Source of the DNA: Rhodococcus sp. IEGM 1409
Lineage (GTDB): Bacteria; Actinomycetota; Actinomycetes; Mycobacteriales; Mycobacteriaceae
Reading direction: 5' to 3'
NCBI RefSeq assembly: GCF_030056735.1
Contig: NZ_JASHKN010000014.1
Location: 62,001-126,000, forward strand
Length of the DNA: 64,000 bases
Shown here: positions 37,938 through 62,397 of the stretch, one piece after another
How positions within the stretch are numbered: position 1 is the first letter of the stretch
Layout of the letters: every line of letters begins with the position of its first letter
Made by a program: the position numbers and the translations under genes
Notes under the pieces: model-generated
Databases searched by the model: none
Told to the model about the DNA's origin: nothing
What the model saw: only the letters and a program-made list of their open reading frames with translations

Positions 37938-37958
37938 ATGAGTGAGGCACTGAATTGA
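37938..37958 (+). CDS. Putative 6-aa leader ORF overlapping the methyltransferase start
   Basis: ATG-AGT-GAG-GCA-CTG-AAT-TGA encodes MSEALN. A GGAGCGG ribosome site stands 5-8 nt before its ATG. Its TGA overlaps the TTG start of the methyltransferase by 2 nt, which would let terminating ribosomes restart there. It may be chance, but it supplies the ribosome site that the TTG start otherwise lacks. Confidence 0.35.
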   Translation: MSEALN

Positions 37959-39289
37959 TTTCGGGACAGGACCTGCGATCGCGGCGCATGGACGTGGGGA
38001 TCAGTCAGTTCCAGTTCGCCCGTGAAGCCGGAGTCTCGTCGGCCGTTGTCTCCGCGTGGGAACTCGACAAGGCGTATCCCAAACCACCGGTGGAGCTAGC
38101 AGTTCTCACGGCCCTCACCGCGTTGGAATCCGCGAAGCGTGAGGGTACGTATGCGGCCCCGCGGAAGCGATCGTGCGGTAGTACCCGTGCGCGTCGAGCG
38201 ACACCGGTCAACGACCCCGCCTCGGTGGCCGGGCGTGCGGTCGCAGGGGCAGGAAGCGGAGGCCCAACCATACTGACGGCGTTCTCCGGTTGTGGCGGTA
38301 TGGCCGAAGGCTTTCGGATGGCGGGGTTTTCGGTGGAGGGATACATCGAAGTCGTGCCGGAGGCGCGCGCGACCTTCGATCGGAACTTCCCCGGCGCGAG
38401 GTGCCTCGGCGAGGACATCCGGGCCATCGACGAAGCCCGTGTGAAAGATCTTCTGGCACAAGTGGACATCGATGTGTTGGCCGGGGGACCGCCGTGTCAG
38501 GGCTTCAGCCTCGCCGGCCGACGCGACCGCGACGATCCGCGCAACCATCTCTTCCGGAACCTGCTCGAGCTCGCCGAACTGGTGAAGCCGAAGGTCTTGG
38601 TGATGGAGAACGTGCGACTGCTGCTCAGCATGAAGGACCCGGACGGCGGGATGGTCATCGACCGGATTCTCGGCGAGATGGCTGCACGCGGTTACGAAGC
38701 GTCGGTCAACACGGTGAATGCGCAGGATTACGGGGTCCCGCAGTTCCGGGAGAGAGTATTCATCGTGGCGACCCGCCGCGACAGTGGTATCGGGCCACTG
38801 CGTTTCCCGCCGAAGACTCATGGCGTGAATGGTGTTGCGCCGCTGAGGACTTTCCGCGATGCCACCGTCGATCTAGCCCCGCTGGAATCCGGGCAGGCCT
38901 GCGAGACGGACCCGCTGCACTGGGCCGTCGAGCATCCCGAGCACGTCTTGCGGTGGTTGCGTGATGTGCCGGAAGGGATGTCGGCTCACGACAACGAAAA
39001 TCCGTCGATGCGACCATCCTCGGGCTACAACACGACGTACAAGCGACTGCGGTGGGACGAGCCGGCGTCGACGGTCGGAACCACCTTCGGGATGATCTCG
39101 GCTTCCCGCAACGTGCACCCGAAACACACGCGATCCTTGACCGTTCGAGAAGCTGCTCGCCTCCAGACCTTCCCCGACGACTACGTCTTCGAAGGCAAGT
39201 GGGGAGCGGTGCGCACGATGATCGGCAATGCCGTGCCGCCGCAACTGGCTTCGGCGCTGGCAGGAGAGATCAAGAAGGCGCTCGGCTGA
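37955..39289 (+). CDS. Cytosine-C5 DNA methyltransferase with N-terminal HTH domain
   Basis: A 444-aa protein. Residues 1-55 form an Xre/Cro-type HTH (QFQFAREAGVSSAVVSAWEL). A basic linker follows, then a full C5-methyltransferase: motif I TAFSGCGGMAEGFRMAGF (about 109), motif IV GGPPCQGFSLAGRRDRDDPR with the catalytic Cys, motif VI VLVMENVR, motif VIII QFRERVFIVATR and motif X MIGNAVPPQLASAL. N-terminal HTH methyltransferases often repress their own gene. No restriction endonuclease gene is adjacent. The TTG start keeps the HTH intact, whereas the next ATG would truncate it. Confidence 0.92.
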   Translation: MISGQDLRSRRMDVGISQFQFAREAGVSSAVVSAWELDKAYPKPPVELAVLTALTALESAKREGTYAAPRKRSCGSTRARRATPVNDPASVAGRAVAGAGSGGPTILTAFSGCGGMAEGFRMAGFSVEGYIEVVPEARATFDRNFPGARCLGEDIRAIDEARVKDLLAQVDIDVLAGGPPCQGFSLAGRRDRDDPRNHLFRNLLELAELVKPKVLVMENVRLLLSMKDPDGGMVIDRILGEMAARGYEASVNTVNAQDYGVPQFRERVFIVATRRDSGIGPLRFPPKTHGVNGVAPLRTFRDATVDLAPLESGQACETDPLHWAVEHPEHVLRWLRDVPEGMSAHDNENPSMRPSSGYNTTYKRLRWDEPASTVGTTFGMISASRNVHPKHTRSLTVREAARLQTFPDDYVFEGKWGAVRTMIGNAVPPQLASALAGEIKKALG

Positions 39290-39891: not shown

Positions 39892-40539
39892 TCACAGTTG
39901 TGTTGCGCCGGACTCACTGGCCGTCGCGACCACGGTGGCTGCCACTATTTGCTCCACGCTGATGCCCGCTGCCGGTAGGCAGTGGTAGAAAATTCGTTCG
40001 CAGAGGTCGACCATCTCCCCGCGCTCGAGCGTCGGCTCGTCGATCCAGTTGACGACGATTTCCTCCATGAATGCCTGCCACCCGGCGATTGTCGCCTCTA
40101 CGGTCGCGTTCGATTCGATGCCCAGATTCGTCAGCGCAGCGACGATCCACGTGGTGAAAGTGCGGCGCATGCCGCGGTAGATCGTGCGCATCCGGACGTC
40201 GCCACTGCCGGCCATACGCATCACGGCGAGGTAAATGGTGGGGTGCTCGATAACGGCGTCGACGAAAGTTTCGATACCTGAACGCAGCTGGGACGTGATG
40301 GGTAGCTCGGGATCCGGTCGCATTCGATCTTCGAGATCGGCCGAGGCAGCCTCGAGGATGGCGTTCTGGAAGCCCTTCTTGTTTTTGAAGTAGTGGAACA
40401 GCAATGGCGGTGAGACGCCGGCCTCGGCCGCAACTCGGTCCATCGACAGCTGATCAAAAGGCTCGGTCCGCAACATGTGCACTGCCACCTCGAGGATTTG
40501 CCTCTGACGGTCTTCGGGGGAGCGGGGGACGGCAGCCAT
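39892..40539 (-). CDS. TetR-family transcriptional regulator
   Basis: A 215-aa regulator. The HTH LSMDRVAAEAGVSPPLLFHY with FKNKKGFQNAI covers about 30-60. The C-terminal ligand domain (TSQLRSGIETFVDAVIEHPT) is typical. It is divergent from the D-aminoacylase-type gene with 97 bp between the start codons. It lies 90 bp beyond the 38-aa peptide gene on the same strand and could control either side. Confidence 0.86.
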   Translation of the reverse strand: MAAVPRSPEDRQRQILEVAVHMLRTEPFDQLSMDRVAAEAGVSPPLLFHYFKNKKGFQNAILEAASADLEDRMRPDPELPITSQLRSGIETFVDAVIEHPTIYLAVMRMAGSGDVRMRTIYRGMRRTFTTWIVAALTNLGIESNATVEATIAGWQAFMEEIVVNWIDEPTLERGEMVDLCERIFYHCLPAAGISVEQIVAATVVATASESGATQL

Positions 40540-40572
40540 TCCGACATCTTATGTATTCGCTCGGAAGGTTCA

Positions 40573-40600
40573 TTGACTTTTACTCAACGCTGTCTATAAC
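40573..40600 (+). promoter_or_regulatory. Promoter of the D-aminoacylase-type gene
   Basis: TTGACT (40573-40578) and TATAAC (40595-40600), 16 bp apart, form a good promoter 36 bp before the GTG start. The direct repeat ACGTGAGG follows (near 40599 and 40615) and may bind the divergent TetR protein. Confidence 0.6.
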
Positions 40601-40636
40601 GTGAGGTAACACATACGTGAGGCGAGGAGTCCGACA

Positions 40637-42427
40637 GTGTCTGCTTTCGACATCGTGGTCAACGACGGGTTGTGGTTCGACGGGACGGGGGCTCCAGGTC
40701 TGCGTCGTAATCTCGGAATTCGAGACGGCGTGGTCGCGGAGGTGTCCACGACGCGCCTGGAGATCGGACCGGACACCGAAGTGATCGACGCGGCCGGCAA
40801 ATGGGTTCTCCCGGGCTTTGTCGACGTCCACACGCACTACGACGCCGAAGCCTTGGTCAGTCCAGGGCTTCCGGAATCGGTTCGCCACGGCGTCACGACG
40901 GTCGTGCTCGGCAATTGCTCGCTGTCGACGGTGTATTCGACCCCGCGCGAGATCGCGGACCTGTTCAGCCGAGTCGAAGCAGTTCCCCACGATGCGGTGC
41001 TGAGCATCCTCGAAGCGAACAAGACTTGGAGCGGCCCCACCGCTTACACCGCCGCACTCGACGCGCTCCCGCTCGGACCCAACGTCGCGGCATTCATCGG
41101 TCACTCCGACATTCGCACGCACGTACTCGGATTGGGGCGAGGCACAGACAAGAAGGTCAAGCCGAGCCGCTCGGAACTCGGCCGGATGGGCTCGATGCTC
41201 GAGGACGCCATCGATGCGGGGATGCTGGGCCTGTCGTCGATGACCAATGCCCTCGACAAGATCGACGGCGACGAATACCGTTCTCGCTCTTTGCCGTCGA
41301 CGTACGCGCGGTGGAAGGAGTTCCGATTCCTCAACCGTATCCTTCGTGATCGCGGAAAGATCTTGCAGAGCGCTCCGACCATCAACCTGTATCCGAACGT
41401 CGCGGCGTTCTTCGCCGAGAGTTCCGCGATCGGACGCAAGAAGCCGCTCAAGACTTCGCTGCTCTCCGGTGCGGATTCGAAGGCCTACCCGGTGATCGTG
41501 TACTTCATGCTCGCTGCGGCCCCACTGCTGAACCGTTTCGCCAAGACCGATTTCAAGTGGCAGCATCTTCCGGTTCCCTTCACGGTCTACGCGGACGGAA
41601 TCGACCTCGTCGTGTTCGAGGAGTTCGGTGCCGGCGCCGCCGCTTTGCATCTCAAAGACCAGGTGGAGCGCAACAAGCTGCTCCAGGACGAGTCGTACCG
41701 GCGTGCATTCCGTAAGGACTACGACAACAAGTTCTCGCCGCGCATCTGGCACCGCAATTTCTACGACGCCGTCATCGTCGGTTGCCCGGACGAGACGTTG
41801 ATCGGCAAGAACTTCGGTCAGGTCGGAGACATCCGGGGAGTGCACCCGGTGGACGCGTACCTCGACTTGGTGGTCAAGTACGGGCGAGATCTTCGTTGGC
41901 GCACCACCATTGCGAATCATCGTCCCAAGTTTGCGAAGAAACTCGCCGCGAGTTCCGGCGTACAGATGGGCTTCGGCGATGCCGGCGCGCATCTGCGCAA
42001 CATGGCGTTCTACAACTACCCGGTGCGACTCCTCAAGCGTGTGAAGGACGCCCAGAGTGATCGCAAGCCGTTCCTGACCGTCGAGCGCGCAATCCATCGC
42101 CTGACGGGTGAACTGGCGGACTGGTACGGCATCGATGCCGGGCATCTACGCCAGGGTGACCGCGCGGACTTCGTTGTCATCGACCCTGCCGGGCTCGACG
42201 AGTCGGTCGACGGGTTGTTCGAGGCAACCGTCCCCGAGTACGGCGGGATCAGCCGAATGGTCAACCGCAGCGACGATGCAGCCGTCGCGACCGTGATCAA
42301 CGGCCGACTCGTCTACAGCGACGGTGAATTCGTCCCGGGATTCGGAACCGAAAAGACGGGCCAATTCCTGCGCGCCGGCGAAAAGGCTCCGGTTGCGGGT
42401 GTCGCGAAGACTAGCGTGGCGTTATGA
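40637..42427 (+). CDS. N-acyl-D-amino-acid deacylase family amidohydrolase
   Basis: A 596-aa amidohydrolase. DVHTHYDAEALVSPGLPESV is the D-aminoacylase metal-site signature; GHSDIRTHVLG and GFGDAGAHLRNM supply further ligands. The end, DWYGIDAGHLRQGDRADFVV, is the usual C-terminal sandwich. It is longer than the roughly 480-aa classical D-aminoacylases because of central insertions seen in actinobacterial members. GAGGAG precedes the GTG. The natural substrate is unknown. It overlaps the alpha/beta hydrolase gene by 4 bp, and the two are probably co-regulated by the TetR protein. Confidence 0.85.
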   Translation: MSAFDIVVNDGLWFDGTGAPGLRRNLGIRDGVVAEVSTTRLEIGPDTEVIDAAGKWVLPGFVDVHTHYDAEALVSPGLPESVRHGVTTVVLGNCSLSTVYSTPREIADLFSRVEAVPHDAVLSILEANKTWSGPTAYTAALDALPLGPNVAAFIGHSDIRTHVLGLGRGTDKKVKPSRSELGRMGSMLEDAIDAGMLGLSSMTNALDKIDGDEYRSRSLPSTYARWKEFRFLNRILRDRGKILQSAPTINLYPNVAAFFAESSAIGRKKPLKTSLLSGADSKAYPVIVYFMLAAAPLLNRFAKTDFKWQHLPVPFTVYADGIDLVVFEEFGAGAAALHLKDQVERNKLLQDESYRRAFRKDYDNKFSPRIWHRNFYDAVIVGCPDETLIGKNFGQVGDIRGVHPVDAYLDLVVKYGRDLRWRTTIANHRPKFAKKLAASSGVQMGFGDAGAHLRNMAFYNYPVRLLKRVKDAQSDRKPFLTVERAIHRLTGELADWYGIDAGHLRQGDRADFVVIDPAGLDESVDGLFEATVPEYGGISRMVNRSDDAAVATVINGRLVYSDGEFVPGFGTEKTGQFLRAGEKAPVAGVAKTSVAL

Positions 42428-43269
42428 CTTCACCGGCGGATCGCCTCACCTCGTACTCCCGGTCCGGACTGACCTTCGACGTACGCGACGAAGGGCCGGT
42501 CGACGGTCCGGTCGTGGTCCTCCTGCACGGTTTTCCGCAGGATTCGAGCTCGTGGGATCAGCTCGCACCGCTGCTGCACGCCCGCGGCTTCCGTACCGTC
42601 GCACCGGATCAGCGAGGATACTCACCAGGCGCCCGGCCGAAAGCGCGCTGGGCGTACCGCGGGTCCGAGCTTGCCGCAGATTCTGTCGCATTGATCGACG
42701 CACTCGGTGTGGGGAAGGTGCACCTGGTCGGCCACGACTGGGGTGCCGCCGTGGCATGGCAGGTAGCTGCCGAGCGGCCCGATTTGCTCAATACCGTTAC
42801 CGCGGTGTCGGTTCCGCATCCACTTGCATTCGTCAAGGCAATGGTGACCAGCACACAGGGACTGAAATCGTGGTACATGGGGGCGTTCCAATTGCCCTTC
42901 GTTCCCGAGAAGGTTCTGTCCTCCACGTCGGCGGGTGAGAAGTTCCTGATTTCGAGCGGACAGACGCCGGAGAACGCACGGCGCGATCTGAACGCCATGC
43001 TGGCTCCCGGACGACTGCGCGGGGGTCTGAACTGGTACCGCGCGATGTGGATGACCAAGCCGAACCCCGCAAGTGCCCGGGTCACCGTGCCGACTTTGCA
43101 TGTGTGGAGCGACGGCGACGCTGCCATCGGGCCCAAGGGTTCTGCGCTCACCCCCGCGTTTGTCGACGGTCCGTACCGGTTCGAAGTTCTCAGCGGCGTG
43201 AGCCACTGGATTCCGGACGAGGCCCCGGAGGAGTTGGACCGACTGCTGGGAGAACATCTCAGTAGCTGA
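42424..43269 (+). CDS. Alpha/beta hydrolase, epoxide-hydrolase-like
   Basis: A 281-aa alpha/beta hydrolase. HGFPQDSSSWDQL is the oxyanion-hole segment and LVGHDWGAAVAWQVA places Asp as nucleophile (GHDWG), as in soluble epoxide hydrolases and haloalkane dehalogenases. The catalytic His lies in LSGVSHWIPDEAPEEL. SDGDAAIGPKG probably gives the acid. Epoxide hydrolysis is the best guess. It ends with a terminator 15 bp past its stop. Confidence 0.85.
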   Translation: MTSPADRLTSYSRSGLTFDVRDEGPVDGPVVVLLHGFPQDSSSWDQLAPLLHARGFRTVAPDQRGYSPGARPKARWAYRGSELAADSVALIDALGVGKVHLVGHDWGAAVAWQVAAERPDLLNTVTAVSVPHPLAFVKAMVTSTQGLKSWYMGAFQLPFVPEKVLSSTSAGEKFLISSGQTPENARRDLNAMLAPGRLRGGLNWYRAMWMTKPNPASARVTVPTLHVWSDGDAAIGPKGSALTPAFVDGPYRFEVLSGVSHWIPDEAPEELDRLLGEHLSS

Positions 43270-43342: not shown

Positions 43343-44482
43343 TCAGCGAGTTCCGAATCGCTCTTCCACCTGCTCCTTCGTCAGTCCGAACTCCTCGAGC
43401 GTGTACTTGTGCGAAGGTTTGCGAGCACCCGAGCGGCTTTCCTCGTGCATGGCCTCCATCGACTGCTGCGCGGCAGATGTCAACGAGATGTCGAAGTGCG
43501 CGTAGATGTTCTCGACGGTGCCCAGTGGATCGGTGACGAAGTCCTGATAGTCGACGTCGATGAACTGTGCCGGATTGTGGTGTGCACGTGCACTGTCGAA
43601 CTGCTCGAGACCCCTGGCCCACAATTCGAGCTGACTTTCGCCGATCACCTTGTCGGTGAACGTGTTCGACCAACCCTCTGTCGCCTGGGCGGCCAGGCTG
43701 CACACCGATGGAATGATCGTGGTAGGGGAGCGGTGAGTCTGAATGACCAGCGCGTCGGGGTACGCCTCCATCAATTCGTCGAGCGCAAACAGGTGGCTCG
43801 GGTTCTTGAGGACCCACCGTCGATCCTGATCGGGCAGACCGATCAGCTGCAGGTTCTTCTTGTGTCGGGCATAGGCGTTCGACCACTCCTGGTCCTTCAG
43901 CCACGCGGAGTACGTGGGTAGATTCGCCAGGCACTCGTAAGACACGGACTTGAACGTCTGACGTAGGAGTTGCCAGCACTCTTCGACTTCACTGGCTGAC
44001 ATGTAGTGCACGCCCATGAATTCGGGATGCTCGACGTGGTGTTGCCCGAACGTCTCCTCGATCTTCGCGAAGACCGGGTTCGATTCCCACGTATCGCGAG
44101 GCGGGCGAGGCTGGGGGAACTCGGTCAGCCACATCTCGAGGCCCTGGTGAGCCGGGTCGACCGTGAGGAGGCGGTGCAGCGCAGTGGTGCCGGTGCGCGG
44201 CAATCCGGTGACGAAGATCGGACGCTCGATCTTGACGTCGGCGTGTTCCGGATGCTCCTTCCATGCCGATTCACTGAGTAGACGTGCCACCAGCGCGCCG
44301 CGCAGGAATACCCGAGAGATCTTGCTGCCGAAGGGGGTCAGATCCTCGTCACGGTCGTAGGACTCGAGGAGTACCGACAGAGCCTCGGTGTAATCGTCGA
44401 CGCCGAAGTCCGTCAGTCCGGTCATCCGTGTCGCCGAGGCGTGGAGATCCTCGACGGTGCCGACATGAGTGCGTTCAGTCAT
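43343..44482 (-). CDS. PAPS-dependent sulfotransferase (Rv3529c-like)
   Basis: A 379-aa sulfotransferase. The 5'-phosphosulfate loop is FVTGLPRTGTTALHRLL (about 98-114) and a 3'-phosphate-binding region is WVLKNPSHLFALDELMEAYP with QTHRSP. The C-terminal YTLEEFGLTKEQVEERFG is typical of mycobacterial and rhodococcal Stf-like proteins. GGAG stands before the ATG. It follows the SDR gene by 7 bp, third in the operon DUF1214-SDR-sulfotransferase. The order matches M. tuberculosis Rv3531c-Rv3530c-Rv3529c as I remember it, part of the KstR cholesterol regulon. The acceptor is unknown; a sterol or its breakdown product is likely. Confidence 0.85.
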   Translation of the reverse strand: MTERTHVGTVEDLHASATRMTGLTDFGVDDYTEALSVLLESYDRDEDLTPFGSKISRVFLRGALVARLLSESAWKEHPEHADVKIERPIFVTGLPRTGTTALHRLLTVDPAHQGLEMWLTEFPQPRPPRDTWESNPVFAKIEETFGQHHVEHPEFMGVHYMSASEVEECWQLLRQTFKSVSYECLANLPTYSAWLKDQEWSNAYARHKKNLQLIGLPDQDRRWVLKNPSHLFALDELMEAYPDALVIQTHRSPTTIIPSVCSLAAQATEGWSNTFTDKVIGESQLELWARGLEQFDSARAHHNPAQFIDVDYQDFVTDPLGTVENIYAHFDISLTSAAQQSMEAMHEESRSGARKPSHKYTLEEFGLTKEQVEERFGTR

Positions 44483-44489
44483 GGTGCTC

Positions 44490-45272
44490 CTAGTGATGGA
44501 ATTCGCCGCAGTTGACGTCGATACATTGGCCGGTGATGGCGCTGGCCATCGGAGACGCGAGGAAGATCGCCGCATCGGATACTTCGTCGGTCGTCGGCAG
44601 GCGCTTGAGGTCGGTGTTCGAGGCGGTGTGCTCGTAAATCTGTTCGACGGTCATGCCGAACTTCTCCGCCTGGTGCGCGAAGTAACCCTTGAGGGTGTCG
44701 CCCCAAATATAGCCGGGTGCAATCGAATTGACACGAATTCCTTGCGGACCGAGCTCGGTGGCCAGAGACTGCGACATGGCGAGCAGCGCCGATTTTGCCA
44801 TCTTGTAGCTGCCGTACCGCTCTTGCGAGTGGCGCAACACCATCGAATTGATGTTCACCACGGAGCCGTCCGACTCTGCAAGTGCCGGCGTGAACAGCTG
44901 GGTCAGACGAAGCGCCCCGAGCACGGTCAGTTCGATGCTGTCGCGGATGTGCTGGTAATCGGTGCGAGCCAACGGTTTCATCGAGGGTATCGAGAATGCA
45001 TTGTTGATCAGCGTGTCGACTTTGCCGTAGGCGGCAATGGATTCGGCCACCAGATTCTCGGCGGAAGCCTGGTCGGTGATGTCGGTGGCCACGGTGACTG
45101 CGCGCCCACCGGCATCGACGATTTCTTTTGCGACGTCGTCGAGTCTCGATTGTGTGCGCGCTGCGAGAACAAGACTCGCGCCGGCCGACGCACAACGAAG
45201 GGCCAAAGCGCGGCCGAGGGCCGGACCGACTCCGGAGATGACTACTACACGGTCTTCGAGCAATGCGGTCAT
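44490..45272 (-). CDS. Short-chain dehydrogenase/reductase (Rv3530c-like)
   Basis: A 260-aa SDR. The cofactor loop is a variant, SGVGPALGRALALRCASAGA (about 14-33). NNAFS is the structural motif. The catalytic Ser/Tyr/Lys lie in INSMVLRHSQERYGSYKMAK, with Y-x3-K at about 153-157. It probably oxidises or reduces a hydroxyl/keto group on the pathway substrate. It starts 2 bp after the DUF1214 stop, so the three genes are one operon. Confidence 0.88.
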   Translation of the reverse strand: MTALLEDRVVVISGVGPALGRALALRCASAGASLVLAARTQSRLDDVAKEIVDAGGRAVTVATDITDQASAENLVAESIAAYGKVDTLINNAFSIPSMKPLARTDYQHIRDSIELTVLGALRLTQLFTPALAESDGSVVNINSMVLRHSQERYGSYKMAKSALLAMSQSLATELGPQGIRVNSIAPGYIWGDTLKGYFAHQAEKFGMTVEQIYEHTASNTDLKRLPTTDEVSDAAIFLASPMASAITGQCIDVNCGEFHH

Positions 45273-45274
45273 GA

Positions 45275-46441
45275 TTACCCCAGCATTCGGTTGTCGATGG
45301 CGGCCTGGCGCTGGGCAATTCGCGCTGCCCAGTCCTCGGCGGTGATGGCGTTGGTGTCGAAATGCGGCAGGTGGTTCGCAATATCTTCGACTGGAACGAT
45401 GTCGACGGTTGGGCCGTCCTCGGGCGTCAGCTCACGGGAGACTCGCTGCCAACGGAACTGAAGAATGCCGCGCGGATGCCCGACGGTTTCGATCCAGTTG
45501 GTGACACCGGGGTTTCTCTCGCTGACCACCATTCGGACCATCCCGTCCGGATCCACCTGCGCCTGGCCGTTGTTGAGCGAAGTCTGGTGGTTGACGTAGT
45601 CCAGTGAGATGTACCAGAGGCTGCCGAGTTGGAATCCCAGATACGGTGCGTCCGACGCCGGGACGGTGATGATCATCGCCTGGTCATCGGTGAGTTCGTA
45701 ATGTCCTACCGACGAGTACTGCGTCGCCAGTCCGCCCGGAGTCAGACGCGGTTCGGTCATGGTGTTGACCGTGAGCTTGAGGTAGAACCACTCCGGAAAC
45801 TGCAGCCACGTCTTGACCCGGGTGACCAGGGCCTTCCCTGCCCGTGCATACCGTTTCTCGGTCTCTTCGGCGGTGAGCGGCGGCGGCGCGATCCCGATCG
45901 AATCGGTGCGCTCGATGCGGATCACGCCGCGCTGCTGACTCCAGTCGCTGTAGACCTCGCGCACGACCAACTGCGAGGATCCTGGCGCCAGGGTGTAGTA
46001 GTTGGCTCGGCCGTCGGCAGGGCCGGGGCCGAACCAAGCGACGAAGTTACCGTCCTCGCCTATCTCGAGTTCGCGGTCGTCGAAGGCGATCTCGCTTCCG
46101 GGAACGTTCGAGTTGGTGTAGTTCCCGCTCAGCACCTGGAAGCTGAGATCGGCTGTGGTGCCACGCTTTCCGGTGACCTTGTATTCCTTGTCGTCGTTGA
46201 TGCGAGCGCCGAAGTACAGGGTGTCCGGGTTGTCGAGGCCCATCTTGGTGAACGGTCCGGTGCCCTGGATGAAACTCGGATGGGTCCTTTCGCTGGCCCA
46301 CGCGGCATGCGTCGTCGCGATGATTCCGCCGGCCAGATATTGGTATCCCTCCAGTAGATCCTGCTCGGATCTGATGTGCGGCGCAGTCTCGATCAATTTC
46401 TCGGCTTCGGCGATCGCTTCGGCAAACGGGTCCGTCAGCAC
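45275..46441 (-). CDS. DUF1214-domain protein (Rv3531c-like)
   Basis: A 388-aa protein whose central and C-terminal parts (YSVGHYELTDDQAMIITVPA, GFQLGSLWYISLDYVNHQTS) resemble DUF1214. No catalytic motif is recognised and there is no signal peptide. GTG start with GAGGAG before it. It is the first gene of the SDR/sulfotransferase operon. Its promoter carries a KstR-type box and the GGTACA palindrome shared with cysD. Function unknown; the setting suggests steroid or side-chain metabolism. Confidence 0.8.
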   Translation of the reverse strand: MLTDPFAEAIAEAEKLIETAPHIRSEQDLLEGYQYLAGGIIATTHAAWASERTHPSFIQGTGPFTKMGLDNPDTLYFGARINDDKEYKVTGKRGTTADLSFQVLSGNYTNSNVPGSEIAFDDRELEIGEDGNFVAWFGPGPADGRANYYTLAPGSSQLVVREVYSDWSQQRGVIRIERTDSIGIAPPPLTAEETEKRYARAGKALVTRVKTWLQFPEWFYLKLTVNTMTEPRLTPGGLATQYSSVGHYELTDDQAMIITVPASDAPYLGFQLGSLWYISLDYVNHQTSLNNGQAQVDPDGMVRMVVSERNPGVTNWIETVGHPRGILQFRWQRVSRELTPEDGPTVDIVPVEDIANHLPHFDTNAITAEDWAARIAQRQAAIDNRMLG

Positions 46442-46487
46442 GCTGGCTCCTCACAGTTCCGACTATGTCGCCGGCCCAGAGCGTCGT

Positions 46488-46503
46488 GGTACAAATATGT
46501 ACC
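46488..46503. promoter_or_regulatory. GGTACA-N4-TGTACC operator, DUF1214 side
   Basis: The dyad GGTACA-AATA-TGTACC lies 47 bp before the DUF1214 start. The same dyad with spacer TAAA occurs before cysD. Being next to an iclR gene, it may be the binding site of that regulator. Confidence 0.7.
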
Positions 46504-46528
46504 TATGGGGTAGATGTTTGGTATTCCG

Positions 46529-46558
46529 ACAATAGAACGCGTTCTAGGGAGTGGTCAA
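46529..46558 (-). promoter_or_regulatory. DUF1214-operon promoter with KstR-type box
   Basis: On the minus strand TTGACC (46553-46558) and TATTGT (46529-46534), 18 bp apart, flank and overlap the perfect 14-bp palindrome TAGAACGCGTTCTA (46533-46546). This matches the KstR consensus TnnAACnnGTTnnA. The -35 overlaps the iclR start codon. The same design recurs before cysD. Confidence 0.75.
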
Positions 46559-47493
46559 TGGGTGGACCTGAGAAGGCGCCTGACGAGGGTCGCTCGAGGG
46601 GGAGGCAATCGCCTCCCACCGAACGTGTGGTTCAGGTGCTCGACTACCTCGTCGGCCGCCCTGACCAGCGGTTCGGGCTGTCGGAACTCGCCCGCGCGCT
46701 CGAGATCAGCAAGCCGACCTGCCTGGGAATTCTCACGGCCCTGGCTGACCGTGGGTACCTGACACGGGACGAGGCGTCGAAGACCTACGGGCTCGGCCCT
46801 GCCTTGATCGCGGCCGGACGTGCAGCTCAGCGAGGATTTGCCGTCGGACCGATAGCACGCACCCACCTCGAGAAGGTGAGTGCGGACTTCGGGACGACAT
46901 GCACGGCGTCCGGTGTGATCGGTGATCAGATCAGCGTGCTCGAAGTGACCGGGCCGATCGGCGCGCGTCGCACCGCCAAGGTTGGTCAGGTGTACCCGTT
47001 CGCTCCGCCGGTCGGACTGATGTACGTCCTCTGGGGTTCGGATCACGACATGGACAGTTGGCTGAGCAAGGAGCCGAGCTTGCCGGTGCGCTTGGATCGC
47101 GAGCGTCTGTGGAACGTGGTCCGCGAGTGTCGCGCCGCGGGGTATCTGGTCGAGAGTCTGGACCCGGTCGGGCAGCGACTTCACACGCTGATGGCGGGCG
47201 TCGCGACGCATGATCTTCCGCCGGAGGTGCGTGAACTGCTCGGTGAGATGGTGTCGAGCCTGGGCGAGAGGGTGTACCTCGGGCGCGATATCAGTTCTGA
47301 CGACGAGCATCCCGTCAGTCTCATCGCGGCCCCGACTTACGACGCCGAAGGGCATCAGGCGCTGGTGCTCACGCTGTATGTGGGCGGGGCGATTACGGGC
47401 GCCGAGATCGAGCGAAGGGCCGCGGCGCTGGTTGTGGCGGCGGACGCGGTGACGGCGGAAGTTGGTGGCCGGAGTCCGGATCGCGGTCTGTGA
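46558..47493 (+). CDS. IclR-family transcriptional regulator
   Basis: A 311-aa regulator. The N-terminal winged HTH (about 22-80) contains RFGLSELARALEISKPTCLG and YLTRDEASKTYGLGPALIAA. The IclR effector domain is C-terminal and contains VGQVYPFAPPVGLMYVLWGS. GGGAG precedes the ATG. The gene stands between the DUF1214 operon (divergent) and cysD (same strand). Both neighbours carry the GGTACA-N4-TGTACC dyad, so it probably controls both, perhaps in answer to a sterol-derived ligand. Confidence 0.88.
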   Translation: MGGPEKAPDEGRSRGRQSPPTERVVQVLDYLVGRPDQRFGLSELARALEISKPTCLGILTALADRGYLTRDEASKTYGLGPALIAAGRAAQRGFAVGPIARTHLEKVSADFGTTCTASGVIGDQISVLEVTGPIGARRTAKVGQVYPFAPPVGLMYVLWGSDHDMDSWLSKEPSLPVRLDRERLWNVVRECRAAGYLVESLDPVGQRLHTLMAGVATHDLPPEVRELLGEMVSSLGERVYLGRDISSDDEHPVSLIAAPTYDAEGHQALVLTLYVGGAITGAEIERRAAALVVAADAVTAEVGGRSPDRGL

Positions 47494-47510
47494 CGTTTGA
47501 TTGTCGGTCA

Positions 47511-47540
47511 TTGACCTTTGGGTAGAACGAGTTCTATTCT
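47511..47540 (+). promoter_or_regulatory. cysD promoter with KstR-type box
   Basis: TTGACC (47511-47516) and TATTCT (47535-47540), 18 bp apart, flank and overlap the palindrome TAGAACGAGTTCTA (47523-47536), which fits TnnAACnnGTTnnA. The box starts 6 bp after the -35, exactly as in the DUF1214 promoter. Confidence 0.75.
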
Positions 47541-47567
47541 GTGATTGCGTTCAATTTAGAACCAGTC

Positions 47568-47585
47568 CGGTACATAAATGTACCG
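47568..47585. promoter_or_regulatory. GGTACA-N4-TGTACC operator, cysD side
   Basis: The dyad CGGTACAT-AA-ATGTACCG has 8-bp perfect arms and lies 53 bp before the cysD start and 31 bp after the KstR-type box. It copies the dyad before DUF1214. Confidence 0.75.
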
Positions 47586-47638
47586 ATGCGGTGACGAAGT
47601 TCCCGCAACGGAGTCAGTGATGCTCAGGAGCGAAAGAC

Positions 47639-48565
47639 ATGGCAACACTCCAGACCCCGCCCGCCTACGAGTTGTCGCATTTGCGAGCACTCGAAGCGGA
47701 GGCGGTCCATATTTTCCGCGAAGTCGCAGCGACTTTCGAAAAGCCGGTCCTCCTGTTCTCCGGAGGTAAGGATTCCGTCGTGATGCTGCACGTAGCGGCC
47801 AAGGCATTCTGGCCTGCGCCATTGCCGTTCGCCGTGATGCACGTCGACACCGGTCACAACTTCGACGAGGTGATCGAGTTCCGTGACCGCACTGTCGATC
47901 GCTTCAGCCTGCGGCTTGTCGTCTCCAGTGTGCAGGACGACATCGACGCCGGACGCGTCATCGAGGACACCGGAGTCGGTTCCAGTCGCAATCGCCTGCA
48001 GACGCACGCGTTACTGCGCGGAATTCGCGACAACAAGTTCGACGCCGTGTTCGGTGGTGCTCGCCGCGACGAAGAGAAAGCGCGAGCCAAGGAGCGGGTA
48101 TTCAGCTTTCGGGACGAGTTCGGGCAGTGGGATCCCAAGGTGCAGCGACCTGAACTGTGGAACCTGTACAACGGCAAACACCGTAAGGGCGAACATATTC
48201 GGATCTTCCCCCTCTCCAATTGGACAGAGCTCGACATCTGGCAGTACATCGAGAGCGAGCAGATCGACCTTCCCGGCATCTACTACGCCCATCGGCGTGA
48301 AGTAGTTCCGCGCGACGGAATGTTGTTGGCGCGCACCCGCTTCCTCGAGCTTCGCGCAGGTGAGGAGTCCTACGAGGCGTTGGTGCGCTTCCGTACGGTC
48401 GGCGACGCAACGTGCACCGGGTGCGTCGAATCGTCGGCCGAAACCCCGGCCGCCGTCGTGGAAGAGGTTGCTGCGAGCCGTATCACGGAGCGTGGCGCAA
48501 CAAGAGCTGATGACCGTATTTCCGAAGCAGGCATGGAAGATCGTAAGAAAGAGGGGTACTTCTGA
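47639..48565 (+). CDS. cysD: Sulfate adenylyltransferase subunit 2
   Basis: A 308-aa PP-loop ATP pyrophosphatase that forms adenosine phosphosulfate from sulfate and [23 protein letters not shown] is the PP-loop (about 39-58). [40 protein letters not shown] and [14 protein letters not shown] are typical of CysD. AGGAG-type ribosome site before the ATG. Stop and next start share one base. No cysH or sulfite reductase genes follow, so its product is directed to PAPS rather than visibly to reduction. Confidence 0.93.
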
Positions 48566-50409
48566 TGCCGCAACTGCTGAGAGTCGCTACGGCGGGCAGT
48601 GTCGACGATGGTAAATCCACACTCATCGGCCGGTTGCTCTACGACTCCAAATCCATCTTCGAGGACCAGCTCGAGGCGGTGGAACGGAGCAGTCGAGAAC
48701 GCGGAGACGAGTACGCCAACCTCGCGTTACTGACTGACGGATTGCGCGCCGAGCGCGAACAGGGCATCACGATCGATGTGGCCCACCGGTATTTCGCGAC
48801 CCCTCACCGCAAGTTCATCATCGCGGACACTCCCGGGCACGAGCAGTACACCCGCAACATGGTGACCGGTGCTTCGACGGCAGATCTCGCCCTGATCCTG
48901 GTGGATGCACGCAAAGGAGTGCTCGAACAGACGCGGCGCCATGCCTTCTTGTCGACTCTCCTGGGGATTCCCCACCTCGTGCTGTGTGTGAACAAGATGG
49001 ACTTGGTGGACTGGTCTCAGGAACGATTCGAGGAGATCAAGGAAGAATTCCGGCAGTTCGCGATCAAATTGGACGTCCACGACCTGACGTTCATTCCGGT
49101 CTCGGCGCTGTTGGGAGACAACATCGTTGCCCGGACCGAGAACATGTCGTGGTACGACGGGCCGTCGCTGCTGCACCATCTGGAGCAGGTGCACATCGCC
49201 TCGGATCGCAACTTGATCGACGCTCGGTTTCCGGTGCAGTACGTGATCCGTCCGCAGAAGCAGACCGACGCCGACCTCCACGATTTCCGTGGCTACGCGG
49301 GAACGGTGGCCAGTGGGGTCTTCAAGCCAGGCGACGAAATCGTGGCGTTGCCTTCTGGATTCACGTCGACGGTGAAGGCTGTCCACGGGCCGGGCGGCGA
49401 CGTGATCGACGAGGCGTTTGCGCCCGCGGCCGTGTGCATCGAGCTGACCGACGATCTGGACGTCAGCCGTGGGGACCAATTGTGTCGGCTCAACAACCGG
49501 CCGCAGGTCGGGCAGGAAATCGATGCGATGGTCTGTTGGCTGACCGAACAGACCACACTGTCGGAGAACAATCGCTACTCGTTGCTGCACACCACGCGCT
49601 CCACGAAGGCACAGATCGTACGGCTCGACTACCGGCTGGACGTCAATTCCCTGCACCGCGACGAGAAGGCAGAATCTCTGTCCCTCAACGAGATCGGTCG
49701 CATCTCGATCAAAACGCAACAGCCGTTGATGTTCGATCCCTACCGCCGCAACCGCGTGACGGGCAGCTTCATTCTCGTAGACGAGACCACGGGCAATACC
49801 GTCGCAGCCGGAATGATCAACGGTCCCACGCTCAAGGAATCACGCGTCGTCTGGCACAGTTCGGAGGTCTCTCGCGAGGAACGGGCGACTACCGGCGGGA
49901 CCGTGTGGCTCACCGGTCTCTCAGCCTCGGGTAAGTCCACGATCGCGGTGGAACTCGAGCGCCGGTTGGTGGCCGCGGGTATCCCGGCGTACCGCCTCGA
50001 CGGCGACAACCTCCGACACGGCCTGAACGCGGATCTGGGTTTCAGCGCCGAGGACCGGGCGGAAAACGTTCGCAGGGTCGGCGCCGTGGCGCAGCTGTTC
50101 GCCGATTCCGGCGCAGTGGCAGTGGCCTGCCTTATCAGTCCGTACCGCGAGGATCGTGATCGAGTGCGCGCAGCCCACGAAGCTGCTGGACTGAAGTTCG
50201 TCGAGGTTTATGTCGACACGCCGATCGAGCAGTGTGAAGCCCGAGATCCCAAGGGAATGTATGCCAAAGCCAGAGCTGGGGAAATCAAGGGATTCACGGG
50301 GGTCGACGATCCCTACGAAGCCCCGAACAGTCCAGAACTGGTGATTCGGCCCGAAGACGGAACGCCTACCGAACTTGCACTGCGAATTATGGAAGTGTTG
50401 GACCGGTGA
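48565..50409 (+). CDS. cysNC: Bifunctional sulfate adenylyltransferase GTPase subunit / APS kinase
   Basis: A 614-aa fusion. Residues 1-430 form the CysN GTPase: [20 protein letters not shown] (P-loop), [17 protein letters not shown] (G3) and NKMDLVD (G4), with beta-barrel domains. About 440-614 is APS kinase: [20 protein letters not shown], then [20 protein letters not shown] and [15 protein letters not shown]. It drives APS synthesis by GTP hydrolysis and phosphorylates APS to PAPS, the sulfonate donor needed by the sulfotransferase nearby. It overlaps cysQ by 4 bp. Confidence 0.94.
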
Positions 50410-51560
50410 GCGAACCCACACACAGCCGACTTGCCGACGAGGCACTGGCAGCGGAATTGGCGCAAGCAGCCGGCGCGATCCTCTTGGGGATCCGAGCCGA
50501 GGGCCTGGGCGTCGACGACGGTCGTGAGCTGGGACGACGGGGCGACAAGGCCGCCGATTCCTACATCCTCGACCGGTTGGCGGCCGAGCGGCCGGGCGAT
50601 GCCGTGCTCTCGGAAGAATCTGCCGACGATCGCACTCGTCTGGAGGCGTCCCGGGTCTGGATCATCGATCCGCTGGACGGCTCCAAGGAATACGGACTCC
50701 CGGATCATTCGGATTGGGCAGTGCACGTTGCGCTTTGGGAGCGCGGTAGCGGAATTACCGCAGCCGCGGTTGCTCAGCCGGCGCTCGGAGCGGTGTACTC
50801 CAGTGGCGACGAGGCCGATTCGGTTCCCGTGAACTCACCGCTCCGCGTAGTAGTCAGCGGATCGCGGCCGCCCGCATTCACCGAAGCGGTGGCAGCCGAA
50901 CTCGGGGCCGACGTGGTGCACATGGGGTCGGCCGGCGCCAAGGCGATGGCGGTGGTGCGCGGCGACGTCGACGCTTACCTTCACGCCGGTGGGCAGTGGG
51001 AGTGGGATTCGGCGGCACCGGTCGGCGTCGCGCAGGCGGCGGGACTGCATTGCAGTCGCATCGACGGTTCGCCGTTGCTCTACAACGAGTCTCATCCCTA
51101 CCTGCCGGATCTCGTGATCTGCCGACCGGAGTTGGCTGAGGCGATCGTCGGCGCAATTGCCAAGCACTCCAAGGAGTCCGCGGTCAGCGGGCGCGTCGCC
51201 ATGGCGCGTGAATACGTGAACGCTTTGCTCACTCATGACGCAACGAAGGTCCGATTCGCCGCCGACGCCTGGCGGGTCGAGAACGGTCAGCGAACCGGTG
51301 ATACCGGCGCTTTCATCAGCAACGAGCTCGAACAGGGGCAGCAATATCGCGGAATCGTGGCGATTCGTGAACTCGCGCTGCGTGAGTGGGGTGAGAGCGT
51401 CGTAGCGCGGTATCTGCTGGACCTCGGAACGCCTGGCCAATCACCGGCCGTGACGGTCTTCGTCACCGAGTACTTCGCCATTCCTGCAGGAGAGATCGCC
51501 AGCATCATGGCTATTATCGAACCACACGAATCCGAAGCGAAAGAGGCTGGCACACAATGA
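50406..51560 (+). CDS. cysQ: 3'(2'),5'-bisphosphate nucleotidase (CysQ) fused to an NTF2-like domain
   Basis: A 384-aa protein. Residues 1-255 form an inositol-monophosphatase-type enzyme: metal motif [20 protein letters not shown] (about 83-102), upstream LSEESADD, and [20 protein letters not shown] near the end. It would hydrolyse PAP, the inhibitory by-product of sulfotransferases. Residues about 260-384 ([20 protein letters not shown] onward) are an extra domain resembling SnoaL/NTF2-like folds, not usual in CysQ. It overlaps both neighbours by 4 bp. Confidence 0.88.
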
Positions 51561-51928
51561 CACCGGACAAGCTGATCACCGAATTCTGTGCACTCTGGGC
51601 ACACGCCGACGTCGCGAAGATCGTCGAGTACTTCACCGATGACATCGTCTACCACAACATTCCGATGGAACCCGTCGTCGGGCGCGAGGCCGTCCGAGCT
51701 TTCATCGAACAATTTGTCGGTGCCTTCGGAAACATCGACTTTCAGATCAAGCGTCAGGTCGCGGACGGCAGCGTGGTGATGAACGAACGCGTCGACGTCT
51801 TCACCATCAACGGCGCCGAGGTAGCGCTCCCGGTCATGGGGGTATTCGAAGTCGAGGGCGGGAAGATCAGCGCCTGGCGCGACTATTTCGACATGGCGCC
51901 GATCAACGCGGCAGCCGGCCAGGCCTGA
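51557..51928 (+). CDS. Limonene-1,2-epoxide-hydrolase-like (SnoaL/NTF2 fold) protein
   Basis: A 123-aa single-domain protein. [20 protein letters not shown] supplies Arg and Asp, and [10 protein letters not shown] supplies the second Asp, matching the Arg/Asp/Asp triad of limonene epoxide hydrolase. M. tuberculosis EphG (Rv2740), of the same family, acts on cholesterol 5,6-epoxide, which fits the steroid theme of this locus. Its start overlaps cysQ by 4 bp, so it belongs to the cysD-cysNC-cysQ operon. The activity itself is inferred. Confidence 0.8.
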
Positions 51929-60027: not shown

Positions 60028-62397
60028 ATGACCGATCACCACTATTCCGAAGACCAACTCGCACTCGACCTGAAGTGGTGGGCAGCGGCCAACTACCTGA
60101 CCGTTGCGCAGATCTACCTGAAGGACAACACGCTCCTGCGGGAACCGTTGCGTGCCGAGCACATCAAACCTCGACTGCTCGGGCACTGGGGGACCAGTCC
60201 CGGTTTGTCGATGATCTACACGCTCCTCAATAGGCACATCGTCGTCACTGATGCGGACTGGCTGTACGTGACCGGTCCCGGGCACGGCGGTCCGGCGCTG
60301 GTCGCGTCGACGTATCTCGAGGGAACGTACTCGGAGATCTATCCGGAAGTGTCGGACGACGCCGAGGGCATCCACCGGATGTGTCGGCGATTCTCGGCTC
60401 CCGGCGGGGTGCCCAGCCACGTGAGTGTGCAGACACCCGGAAGCATTCACGAAGGCGGGGAGCTCGGCTACGCCCTTGCCCATGCGGCCGGCGCTGCCTT
60501 CGATCATCCGAACCTCGTGGTGGCTTGTGTGATCGGCGACGGCGAAGCGGAGACCGGGCCTCTGTCCGGTTCGTGGAAGCTTCCGGCGTTCCTGAATCCA
60601 CGACGCGACGGCGCGGTGCTGCCGATCCTGCACGTGAACGGCGCCAAGATCGCCGGGCCGACGGTGTACGGCCGCAGCAGTGACGAAGACATCCAGGCGT
60701 ATCTCGGTGGCCAGGGGTGGGCACCGATCGTCGTCTCCGGTGACGACCCCGACGTGGTGTTTCCTCAGCTGTATCAAGCGATCTCACAGGCGCACGAGAA
60801 GATCCGCGAGATGCAGGGTGCCGCACGCCGCGGAGAGGAATGGACGGGTTCGTGGCCGGCAATCGTGTTGCGGACACCGAAAGGATGGACCGGTCCGCAC
60901 GCCGTCGACGGAATTTTGGTCGAGGGCACACATCGTGCGCACCAGGTGCCGTTGTCCGGCGTGCGAACAAACGAGTCGCATCTGCGGCAACTCGAAGAGT
61001 GGATGCGTTCGTATCGGCCAGACGAGTTGTTCGACTCCAACGGATCACTGGTCGCGGAACTGGCGGCGCTCTCGCCGGCGGGTGACAAGCGTATGGGGAG
61101 CACCCCGTACGCGAACGGTGGACGACTTCGCGTCGATCTCCCGATGCCGCCGCTCGAAAGATATGCGCTTCCAATCGAATCCCCGGGTTCGACTTTCCAC
61201 GAGACGACGAGAGTGCTGGGCGAGCTTCTGCGCGACATCTACGCCGCCACGGAAACCGAAGACGGCGGCGGGATTTTCCGACTCTTCTGCCCGGACGAGA
61301 CGTCGAGCAATCGCCTCGGCGCCGTGTTCGAGACAACCGATCGCTGCTGGCAATTGCCGATCACCGACTACGACGACGGACTGTCCGCGGACGGACGCGT
61401 CATGGAGGTCCTCAGCGAGCACCTCTGTGAGGGTTGGCTCGAGGGGTATCTGTTGTCAGGCCGACACGGGATGTTCGCGAGCTACGAAGCGTTTGCGATG
61501 GTGAGTGTCTCGATGCTCATCCAGCACGCCAAGTGGCTCCAACACGCAGTCGACCTGCCGTGGCGGGCGTCCGTCGCTTCGCTCAACGTGCTGCTGACCA
61601 GTACTTGTTGGCGCAACGACCACAACGGATTCTCTCATCAGGGTCCCGGTATGATCGACGCCGTTATTCCCTTGGCTCCCAGTGTGATCCGTGTGTGGCT
61701 ACCGCCGGATTCCAACACCTTGCTCTCGATCTCGGATCACTGTCTGCGCAGTACCGACCACGTCAACCTGATCGTCGTGGACAAGCAACCGCACCTGCAA
61801 TACCTCACGCTCGAGCAAGCGCACGAGCACTGTGCGGCGGGGGCTTCGGTCTGGGAATGGGCCGGAACGGAAGCTCGCGGACAGGAACCGGACGTGATCC
61901 TGGCCGCGGCGGGAGACGTACCGACGCAGGAGATATTGGCTGCTGCACAGTTGCTGCGCGATCACACGCCGGAACTGGTCACCCGTGTCGTCAACGTCGT
62001 CGACCTGATGGCGCTGCTGACCCCAACCGAGCATCCACACGGATTCGGGGAGCGGGTCTTCCTCGATCTGTTCACCACGCAGACCGACGTCGTGTTCGCG
62101 TTTCACGGCTACTCGCGCGCGGTGCACGAACTCATCCACGGGCGTCCGAGTCCCGAGCGTTTCCACGTTCGCGGATTCAGTGAACAGGGCACAACCACAA
62201 CACCGTTCGACATGGTTGTCCTCAACAAGATGAGCCGCTACCACCTGGTGATCGAGGCGCTACGACGCTCCAAGCGCCGGCCGGCCGGCGCGTCCGAGTT
62301 GGCGGAGTTCTGCCGCACCCAGCTCGAAAAGCACTCGCGCTACATCGTCGAGCACTTCGAAGACATGCCGGAGGTAGAAAACTGGACCTGGTCCTGA
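60028..62397 (+). CDS. xfp: Phosphoketolase (xylulose-5-phosphate/fructose-6-phosphate)
   Basis: A 789-aa ThDP enzyme that splits xylulose-5-P or fructose-6-P into acetyl phosphate and a shorter sugar phosphate. YVTGPGHGGPALVASTYLEG, GGELGYALAHAAGAAFDHPN and GDGEAETGPLSGSWKLPAFL are phosphoketolase signatures. The ATG has a GGGAG ribosome site 6 nt before it; a GTG 19 codons upstream lacks one. No acetate kinase or phosphotransacetylase gene is adjacent. The 243 bp upstream to the tRNA hold only a possible GGGGAC/GTCCCC hairpin. Confidence 0.93.
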   Translation: MTDHHYSEDQLALDLKWWAAANYLTVAQIYLKDNTLLREPLRAEHIKPRLLGHWGTSPGLSMIYTLLNRHIVVTDADWLYVTGPGHGGPALVASTYLEGTYSEIYPEVSDDAEGIHRMCRRFSAPGGVPSHVSVQTPGSIHEGGELGYALAHAAGAAFDHPNLVVACVIGDGEAETGPLSGSWKLPAFLNPRRDGAVLPILHVNGAKIAGPTVYGRSSDEDIQAYLGGQGWAPIVVSGDDPDVVFPQLYQAISQAHEKIREMQGAARRGEEWTGSWPAIVLRTPKGWTGPHAVDGILVEGTHRAHQVPLSGVRTNESHLRQLEEWMRSYRPDELFDSNGSLVAELAALSPAGDKRMGSTPYANGGRLRVDLPMPPLERYALPIESPGSTFHETTRVLGELLRDIYAATETEDGGGIFRLFCPDETSSNRLGAVFETTDRCWQLPITDYDDGLSADGRVMEVLSEHLCEGWLEGYLLSGRHGMFASYEAFAMVSVSMLIQHAKWLQHAVDLPWRASVASLNVLLTSTCWRNDHNGFSHQGPGMIDAVIPLAPSVIRVWLPPDSNTLLSISDHCLRSTDHVNLIVVDKQPHLQYLTLEQAHEHCAAGASVWEWAGTEARGQEPDVILAAAGDVPTQEILAAAQLLRDHTPELVTRVVNVVDLMALLTPTEHPHGFGERVFLDLFTTQTDVVFAFHGYSRAVHELIHGRPSPERFHVRGFSEQGTTTTPFDMVVLNKMSRYHLVIEALRRSKRRPAGASELAEFCRTQLEKHSRYIVEHFEDMPEVENWTWS

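Follow-up and report, generated by a model that had tools for sequence, protein, structure and literature searches.

A probable sterol-switched sulfonation module with a linked PAPS operon in Rhodococcus and related actinobacteria

Related systems described so far

Sulfate activation can be dedicated to one sulfotransferase, as in rhizobia, where the duplicated CysD/CysNC pair encoded by nodPQ serves NodH in the sulfation of Nod factors under the control of NodD. The subject of this report is a locus at positions 43343-51928 of a 64,000-nucleotide stretch of DNA (hereafter the window) from Rhodococcus sp. IEGM 1409, which resembles nodPQ-nodH in having a CysD/CysNC pair that is apparently dedicated and differs from it in that the rhizobial genes are controlled by NodD and have no link to sterols. 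Here an operon for a sulfotransferase, a short-chain dehydrogenase/reductase (SDR) and a 388-residue protein (the DUF protein below) diverges from an iclR gene, which is followed by an operon for making 3'-phosphoadenosine 5'-phosphosulfate (PAPS) and removing 3'-phosphoadenosine 5'-phosphate (PAP), and both operons have the same two candidate operators, one KstR-type and one IclR-type. The reading that we consider probable is that of a conserved, sterol-switched sulfonation module acting on a hydroxylated metabolite of sterol breakdown, the steroid nature of the acceptor being its least certain part.

The sulfotransferase half has a described counterpart in Mycobacterium, Rv3529c-Rv3531c, in which a KstR motif likewise stands before Rv3531c. 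In M. tuberculosis this motif was positive in gel-shift assays, in keeping with the original prediction, made from the letters of the window, which had placed Rv3529c-Rv3531c in the KstR regulon; in M. smegmatis, the KstR motif of MSMEG_5932/5933 was positive by reverse transcription quantitative PCR (PMC1995591). Given the presumed orthology to the Rv genes, the sulfotransferase half of the locus is already known as a KstR target. In the accessible part of PMC6429209, Rv3529c and Rv3531c are given only as conserved or hypothetical proteins. Relatives of this operon in Mycobacterium-like genomes, four of six with a full KstR box on the sulfotransferase (left) side, differ from the Rhodococcus locus in that cysDNC is neither linked to it nor box-bearing in any of the six.

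Two further systems resemble the locus in coupling a sulfotransferase to sulfate activation. In Bacteroides, the sulfotransferase gene BT_0416 lies beside the putative PAPS genes BT_0411-0415, cholesterol raised the expression of both genes tested, and cholesterol sulfate was demonstrated as the product (PMC9417993). This BT_0411-BT_0416 cluster belongs to another phylum and, as far as its description could be compared, comes with no mention of KstR-like or IclR-like control or of SDR and DUF partners (PMC9417993). In Rhodococcus qingshengii IGTS8, an ATP sulfurylase with a fused adenosine 5'-phosphosulfate (APS) kinase is encoded beside a sulfotransferase (CysN2CD2-Stf0), apart from the assimilatory CysN1D1-CysH, and was raised in dibenzothiophene cultures; the part of that paper available to us mentions no CysD3, no CysN3 and no 'third' set (PMC8557817). 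The original prediction knew of no CysDNC/CysQ dedicated to such a locus, a statement that these Bacteroides and Rhodococcus precedents show to be too sweeping (PMC9417993; PMC8557817).

What was not found in the open-access literature (subscription papers lay outside the search) is an actinobacterial operon for making PAPS and clearing PAP that has KstR operators and a second operator beside iclR. The accessible parts of PMC6063337 and PMC6469627 hold nothing on a KstR-linked sulfonation module, that of PMC7807495 does not mention sulfotransferase, sulfate or cysD, and PMC10398937, as far as seen, concerns a different operon, with kstR3. A sterol-induced IclR gene, SRTF2, has been described beside a ketosteroid dehydrogenase gene (PMC7062782, seen in part), a gene that may differ from the iclR of the locus. 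What appears to be new is the joining of a PAPS make-and-clear operon under KstR operators with a second conserved operator beside iclR, in several actinobacterial families.

Shared promoters and their conservation

The minus-strand operon runs leftward from 46441, with the DUF protein first (45275-46441), then the SDR (44490-45272, 260 residues, NF005909 E 7.7e-128) and finally the sulfotransferase (43343-44485, 380 residues, PF13469 E 5.8e-59). On the plus strand, iclR (46558-47493, 311 residues, PF09339 E 8.9e-8) is followed from 47639 by cysD, cysNC, cysQ and a gene of the limonene-epoxide-hydrolase (LEH) family. Profile searches agree with the original calls for the sulfotransferase, SDR, IclR, CysD, CysNC and CysQ, and make an 'epoxide-hydrolase-like' gene precise as a member of the LEH family (PF07858, 5aif).

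The promoters of the two operons are built alike. That of the DUF operon consists of a predicted -35 TTGACC (46553-46558, minus strand), 6 bp, the perfect KstR-type palindrome TAGAACGCGTTCTA (46533-46546), a predicted -10 TATTGT (46529-46534, minus strand) at an 18-bp spacer and, 29 bp further on, the IclR-type palindrome GGTACAAATATGTACC (46488-46503); that of the cysD operon has TTGACC (47511-47516, plus strand), again 6 bp, TAGAACGAGTTCTA (47523-47536), TATTCT (47535-47540, plus strand) at the same spacer and, after 32 bp, GGTACATAAATGTACC (47569-47584). In both, the final two bases of the KstR-type palindrome are the first two of the -10. The shared plan was the core of the original prediction, and it stands, with a gap to the second box of 29 and 32 bp and with matches above chance: within the window TNNAACNNGTTNNA occurs only at 46533-46546 and 47523-47536 (expectation 0.25), and exact GGTACA-N4-TGTACC only twice, a further match at 62373 having two mismatches. 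The form TnnAACnnGTTnnA, taken from the KstR motif described in PMC1995591 (seen in part), is likewise present at the promoter, and in the same source the palindrome of kstR overlaps a putative -10.

In the genome around the window (6.1 Mb, 58 contigs), exact GGTACA-N4-TGTACC has three copies, two of them at the locus. The third (C33:303908, position 9909 of L029) was considered as a module-linked site and rejected, as it sits within an ORF of 190 residues with no visible link. At one mismatch or fewer there are five sites, against one for the reversed pattern. The loose KstR pattern gives 73 matches against 42 in the reversed control, so loose matches mean little on their own; the strict TAGAAC-N2-GTTCTA gives nine against two, and two of the nine are at the locus. 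Of the others, two flank the acyl-CoA dehydrogenase gene next to kstR, with a box at kstR itself, and the remainder include boxes at kshB, hsaA and a ketosteroid-isomerase-like gene (named from their translations). The genome also encodes KstR, CYP125 and KshA, by matches to solved structures. Because the left KstR box ends 11 bp ahead of its start codon, iclR probably belongs to the same regulatory circuit.

Conservation was followed in two sets of loci. In the first, 401 genomes of the family were searched with the IclR protein at E ≤ 1e-30, which gave matches in 172 genomes and 16 of 31 genera, and 40 loci were taken (the family set); in the second, a scan of named taxa, the best 80 of 353 loci were kept (the best-80 set), in which near relatives dominate, the closest by IclR identity (96-97%) being R. 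qingshengii, Rhodococcus sp. P-2 and R. erythropolis. In the family set, the sulfotransferase and DUF genes lie beside iclR in 39 of 40 loci, 29 of these having cysD-cysNC as well and 23 also cysQ. Among the 72 best-80 loci with enough flank for gene counts (the other eight were left out), the sulfotransferase and DUF genes are present in every one; an SDR above 180 bits is found in 65, cysD and cysNC in 68, cysQ in 46 and the LEH gene in 25. The full layout, sulfotransferase-SDR-DUF leftward and iclR and cysD-cysNC-cysQ rightward, is found again in Rhodococcus, Prescottella and Speluncibacter; the versions of Nocardia, Antrihabitans, Skermania, Amycolatopsis and Kutzneria lack one gene or another. 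cysDNC is present at the locus in all these genera and in Actinophytocola; loci of Actinomadura, Microtetraspora and Microbispora are without it. A tree of CysD from 43 hand-picked rows has an unresolved backbone and leaves the ancestry of the linkage undecided; in it seven unlinked copies, of which six are Mycobacterium-like and one is from g20, form a firm clade (100/100), with a warning by the program of a possible meeting of long branches.

The boxes are kept along with the genes. KstR boxes were scored over eight positions and IclR-type boxes (GGTnCA-N4-TGnACC) over ten, the latter being counted as present at 9/10 or better. Left regions of the best-80 set (n = 79) have a full KstR box in 76 and an IclR-type box in all 79; those of the family set (n = 39) have 32 and 36. 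Between iclR and cysD, 64 of the 74 best-80 regions (69 of them at least 30 bp long) have a KstR box of 7/8 or better, 37 a full one, 41 an IclR-type box and 39 both boxes, and the counts do not change when only the 250 bp 5' of cysD are scanned; in the family set (n = 29), 25 have a KstR box of at least 7/8 and 19 an IclR-type box. Pooling gave 120 loci and, since L099 (a paralogue that lacks the module) and L164 (at a contig end) yield no left region, 118 left regions, together with 94 right regions after exclusion of nine iclR-cysD regions shorter than 30 bp, five of them among the 74 of the best-80 set. Full KstR boxes occur in 108 of the 118 left regions (mean of 50 mononucleotide shuffles 0.14) and IclR-type boxes in 115 (0.60); on the right, KstR boxes reach at least 7/8 in 89 of 94 (2.68) and 8/8 in 55 (0.16), and IclR-type boxes number 60 (0.42). 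These pools contain duplicate records; over unique sequences the counts are 95 and 101 of 104 on the left and 73 and 51 of 78 on the right. Where both boxes are present, their starts lie 43-47 bp apart in 99 of 107 left regions and 42-49 bp apart in 55 of 55 right regions, and a TTGACC-like element appears in the consensus of both promoters across relatives. Such conservation of a palindrome next to the orthologous regulator genes is what would be expected of an IclR target.

The comparison across relatives, proposed with the original prediction, therefore finds the boxes kept over several families, Rhodococcus and Nocardia included. Two-box control of cysD is a narrower matter: it fits the 39 of 74 best-80 regions with both boxes, but the listed iclR-cysD regions of Nocardia, Amycolatopsis and Kutzneria are without the IclR-type box. 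On the cysD side in Nocardia and Amycolatopsis the KstR-like box is one position short, except in L166 (Nocardia, 6/8) and L164 (Amycolatopsis, 6/8 within 250 bp). In Antrihabitans (L125, L130, L140, L149) and Skermania (L155), the iclR-cysD gap is shorter than 30 bp, and as the two genes nearly abut they may share one transcript from the KstR-box promoter of iclR.

Thirteen other cysD loci served as a comparison, namely the six Mycobacterium-like ones, the assimilatory and Stf0-linked copies of this genome and five more. Over the 400 bp 5' of cysD, none scores better than 6/8 for KstR. Where another gene comes first in the operon (at least L027, L028, L226, L227 and L228), this stretch misses the operon promoter; the scan of whole loci, which is the better control, found no full KstR or IclR-type box within the 6.5-19 kb covered.

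Some loci depart from the common plan in other ways. In L225 (G012:C41:90000-100000), a module-type cysD-cysNC-cysQ operon lies beside another divergent gene of the IclR family (26% identity), apart from the sulfotransferase-IclR locus of the same genome. In three Amycolatopsis loci (L160, L169 and L148), a SnoaL-like gene of about 165 codons at about 9.9-10.4 kb separates iclR from cysD; it is transcribed divergently from cysD, and a KstR-like box (7/8) stands shortly 5' of cysD. Rhodococcus loci L113, L119 and L145 carry between cysQ and the LEH gene what appears from its translation to be a luciferase-like (F420-type) oxidoreductase gene, and L098 (G064:C39) holds an additional module copy that has diverged further, with a left KstR box of only 7/8, in a genome whose closer copy is on C45.

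Proteins of the two operons and other sulfate activation

Nearly the full length of the sulfotransferase aligns with PDB 2zq5 (E 3e-163), an entry that we take to be M. tuberculosis Stf1. Its start at 44485 is preferred over that of the longest ORF at 44575, since the alignments begin there. The PRxGTT loop, R251 and S259, which have roles in PAPS binding, are invariant in an alignment of 21 rows and, with the PF13469 score, place the protein in the Sulfotransfer_3 family; it is the only match to PF13469 at E ≤ 0.001 in the genome. The SDR is closest to 3ucx (E 1.8e-112), followed by 7-alpha-hydroxysteroid dehydrogenases from E 5.8e-33. The 388-residue protein had been named DUF1214, and that name stands in part: a Pfam search gave no match at E ≤ 10, but a fairly confident predicted model has a fold close to 6ans and, at a greater distance, to VPA0106/VPA0735, which we take to be DUF1254/DUF1214 proteins. 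In a fold search with this model, 6ans, 3u07, 3vb9 and 2p3y exceed the background, from which no function follows.

On the other side, cysD (47639-48565, plus strand; TIGR02039 above cut-off) encodes the small subunit of ATP sulfurylase and cysNC (48565-50409, plus strand; NF004035 above cut-off, PF01583 E 3.7e-68) its GTPase subunit with a fused APS kinase, which together make a PAPS synthase. The product of cysQ (50406-51560, plus strand; 384 residues) has as its nearest structure 5djf, a PAP phosphatase (E 6.7e-79) that is presumably from M. tuberculosis. It belongs to the Inositol_P family, and its metal-site motifs EE, DPLDG and WD are invariant in 23 rows, as fits a PAP phosphatase; TIGR01331 is its best CysQ model, yet at 90.9 bits against a cut-off of 228.8. 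A C-terminal extension of about 125 residues (window 51171-51560) is aligned in most Rhodococcus-group rows and not in two Antrihabitans rows and the Skermania row; five fragments of it gave no Pfam match at E ≤ 1, and its predicted structure is an alpha+beta domain, perhaps of NTF2/SnoaL-like type. The LEH-family protein (51557-51928, plus strand; 123 residues, PF07858 E 6.8e-22, above cut-off; 5aif E 2.2e-26) aligns with 4xbt at Y-x-N, R-x-D and WRDYFD, the Y-x-N, R-x-D and D positions being catalytic in such enzymes, and also with 2bng, which we take to be an enzyme that hydrolyses cholesterol epoxide.

The genome has three cysD genes (assimilatory, Stf0-linked and module), two APS kinases and one strong match to CysQ, at the locus, with two weak partial matches elsewhere. 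A linked cysH or sulfite reductase gene, by which the original prediction would have recognized a plainly assimilatory cysDNC, was looked for beside the module and not found, and the idea is rejected: assimilation has its own sulfite reductase-cysH-cysD-cysN operon on another contig, its cysN without an APS kinase and the surrounding 16 kb without a full KstR or IclR-type box. The CysH of this operon bears the signatures CCALRKVAPL, SIGCAPCTS and KTECGLH, which the accessible part of PMC8557817 gives for APS reductases, so sulfate reduction should need no PAPS. With assimilation served by a cysDN of its own, whose CysH is of APS-reductase type, and with another cysDNC beside Stf0, the module cysDNC is, by its gene context, not assimilatory. 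A dedicated, KstR-linked PAPS supply is well supported by the conserved layout and boxes, by the separate assimilatory set and by the position of the one strong CysQ of the genome at the locus.

The counterpart of IGTS8 CysN2CD2-Stf0 in this genome (L028, C56:252000-271000) comprises an Stf0 sulfotransferase, cysD, cysNC and a convergent sulfatase gene. It differs from the module in the family of its sulfotransferase (PF09037 E 9.9e-77; against PF13469 it scores 21.3 bits, below the cut-off of 27), in the sulfatase and in its lack, over the 19 kb scanned, of any full box of the KstR or the IclR type.

Genes for a TetR regulator, an amidohydrolase and an alpha/beta hydrolase (39892-43269) adjoin the sulfotransferase gene; they were left out of the module because they stand beside it in some Rhodococcus loci only. 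Further out, 37955-39289 appears from its translation to encode a protein resembling DNA cytosine methyltransferases, with an N-terminal XRE-like helix-turn-helix stretch.

Proposed mechanism and alternatives

A scheme that would account for the shared promoters is as follows. In the absence of sterol, KstR would sit on the boxes over both -10 elements, as at the kstR promoter itself (PMC1995591, seen in part), and IclR on the boxes just 3' of the predicted start sites, where it would block initiation or elongation, so that both operons would be off. A sterol-derived ligand would free KstR and a second ligand IclR; the first operon would then provide the sulfotransferase with its SDR and DUF partners, and the second PAPS (CysD, CysNC) and the removal of PAP (CysQ), so that PAPS would be made and PAP cleared only once both repressors had been released. 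The sulfotransferase would sulfonate a hydroxylated metabolite arising in sterol breakdown. Binding by KstR and IclR, the mode of repression, the order of events, the start sites and the ligands are here all predicted from the DNA. Of the self-contained pathway from PAPS to a sulfonated steroid that had been proposed originally, a co-regulated, self-supplied sulfonation module stands, on the strength of the conserved layout and boxes and of an assimilatory operon elsewhere, while the steroid acceptor, binding by the two regulators and induction by sterols are the parts that we infer.

Several observations weigh against this reading. The case is built on genes and boxes, with binding, expression and metabolites predicted from them, and PAPS is a soluble pool. 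A private PAPS supply is not a requirement, because all six Mycobacterium-like genomes combine the sulfotransferase-SDR-DUF-IclR layout with a cysD-cysNC-cysQ operon that lies elsewhere and has no boxes. CysQ is absent from the site in 22 of the 68 best-80 loci with CysD, and the LEH gene from 47 of 72. In favour of the reading, each of the 41 genomes that carry the IclR orthologue has a match to KstR at E ≤ 1e-60, compared with 8 of the 20 that lack it (those listed by the family scan), but this contrast is confounded by genus. Five left regions of the family set (L083, L085, L086, L089 and L100) reach at most 6/8 for the KstR box though KstR is kept, and two more 7/8; in the best-80 set, L135 and L147 have 5/8 and L111 7/8, and ten of the 74 iclR-cysD regions have no KstR-like box, five of the ten being shorter than 30 bp. 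The idea that the box is lost where KstR is lost was not supported, as KstR is present throughout the 41 genomes searched, also in those five whose left box reaches 6/8 at most; by this comparison the box can be lost while the repressor is kept.

The most serious alternative, which we regard as unlikely, accepts the control by KstR and IclR as described and replaces the steroid by another acceptor, a cell-envelope lipid or a quinone that would be formed on sensing of sterol, as in mycobacterial S881 (sulfomenaquinone). Membership of the KstR regulon defines no substrate, and for Mycobacterium a route to S881 by a hydroxylase and a sulfotransferase has been proposed (PMC6469627, seen in part). 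The SDR and DUF partners do not name a substrate either, although hydroxysteroid dehydrogenases follow 3ucx as the closest solved structures to the SDR (E about 6e-33), a weak pointer to a steroid. It also speaks against this alternative that a KstR-like box is found at the donor operon too, in genera whose envelopes differ (Rhodococcus, Nocardia, Amycolatopsis and Kutzneria).

A further alternative, improbable in our view, keeps the steroid and makes sulfonation a transient activation within sterol catabolism, the sulfate serving as a leaving group for an elimination or rearrangement, with no sulfated end product and with PAP and sulfate recycled. The boxes of a catabolic repressor, the PAP phosphatase and the SDR fit a pathway step as well as they fit conjugation, and there is no exporter-like gene among the module genes (exporters elsewhere were not searched for). 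However, such elimination chemistry has no sequence evidence, and the described aerobic sterol pathway runs without a step of this kind. Finally, that cysD-cysNC-cysQ is an ordinary sulfate-activation operon lying by chance beside the sulfotransferase operon is very improbable and already disfavoured, since, although Mycobacterium-like genomes have the same gene order unlinked, this genome has its separate sulfite reductase-cysH-cysD-cysN operon, the two promoters share both boxes at matched spacing that is kept in relatives, and the 13 comparison loci are without boxes.

For the sterol-switched module that we prefer, the consequences reach beyond Rhodococcus. Rv3529c-Rv3531c is an operon of the KstR regulon for which no role was found in the literature searched, and a PAPS make-and-recycle operon beside its relatives, under the same operators, suggests that PAPS-dependent sulfonation is what matters there. 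More tentatively, and at somewhat less than even chances, aerobic actinobacterial sterol degradation may have a sulfonation branch that extends from Rhodococcus to Kutzneria, in many cases with a private supply of PAPS and clearance of PAP under an IclR-sensed signal, which would give Rv3529c-Rv3531c its function. If the acceptor is a steroid, the sterol pathway as described misses a branch, and in strains used in steroid biotechnology a sulfated by-product might escape the usual extraction.

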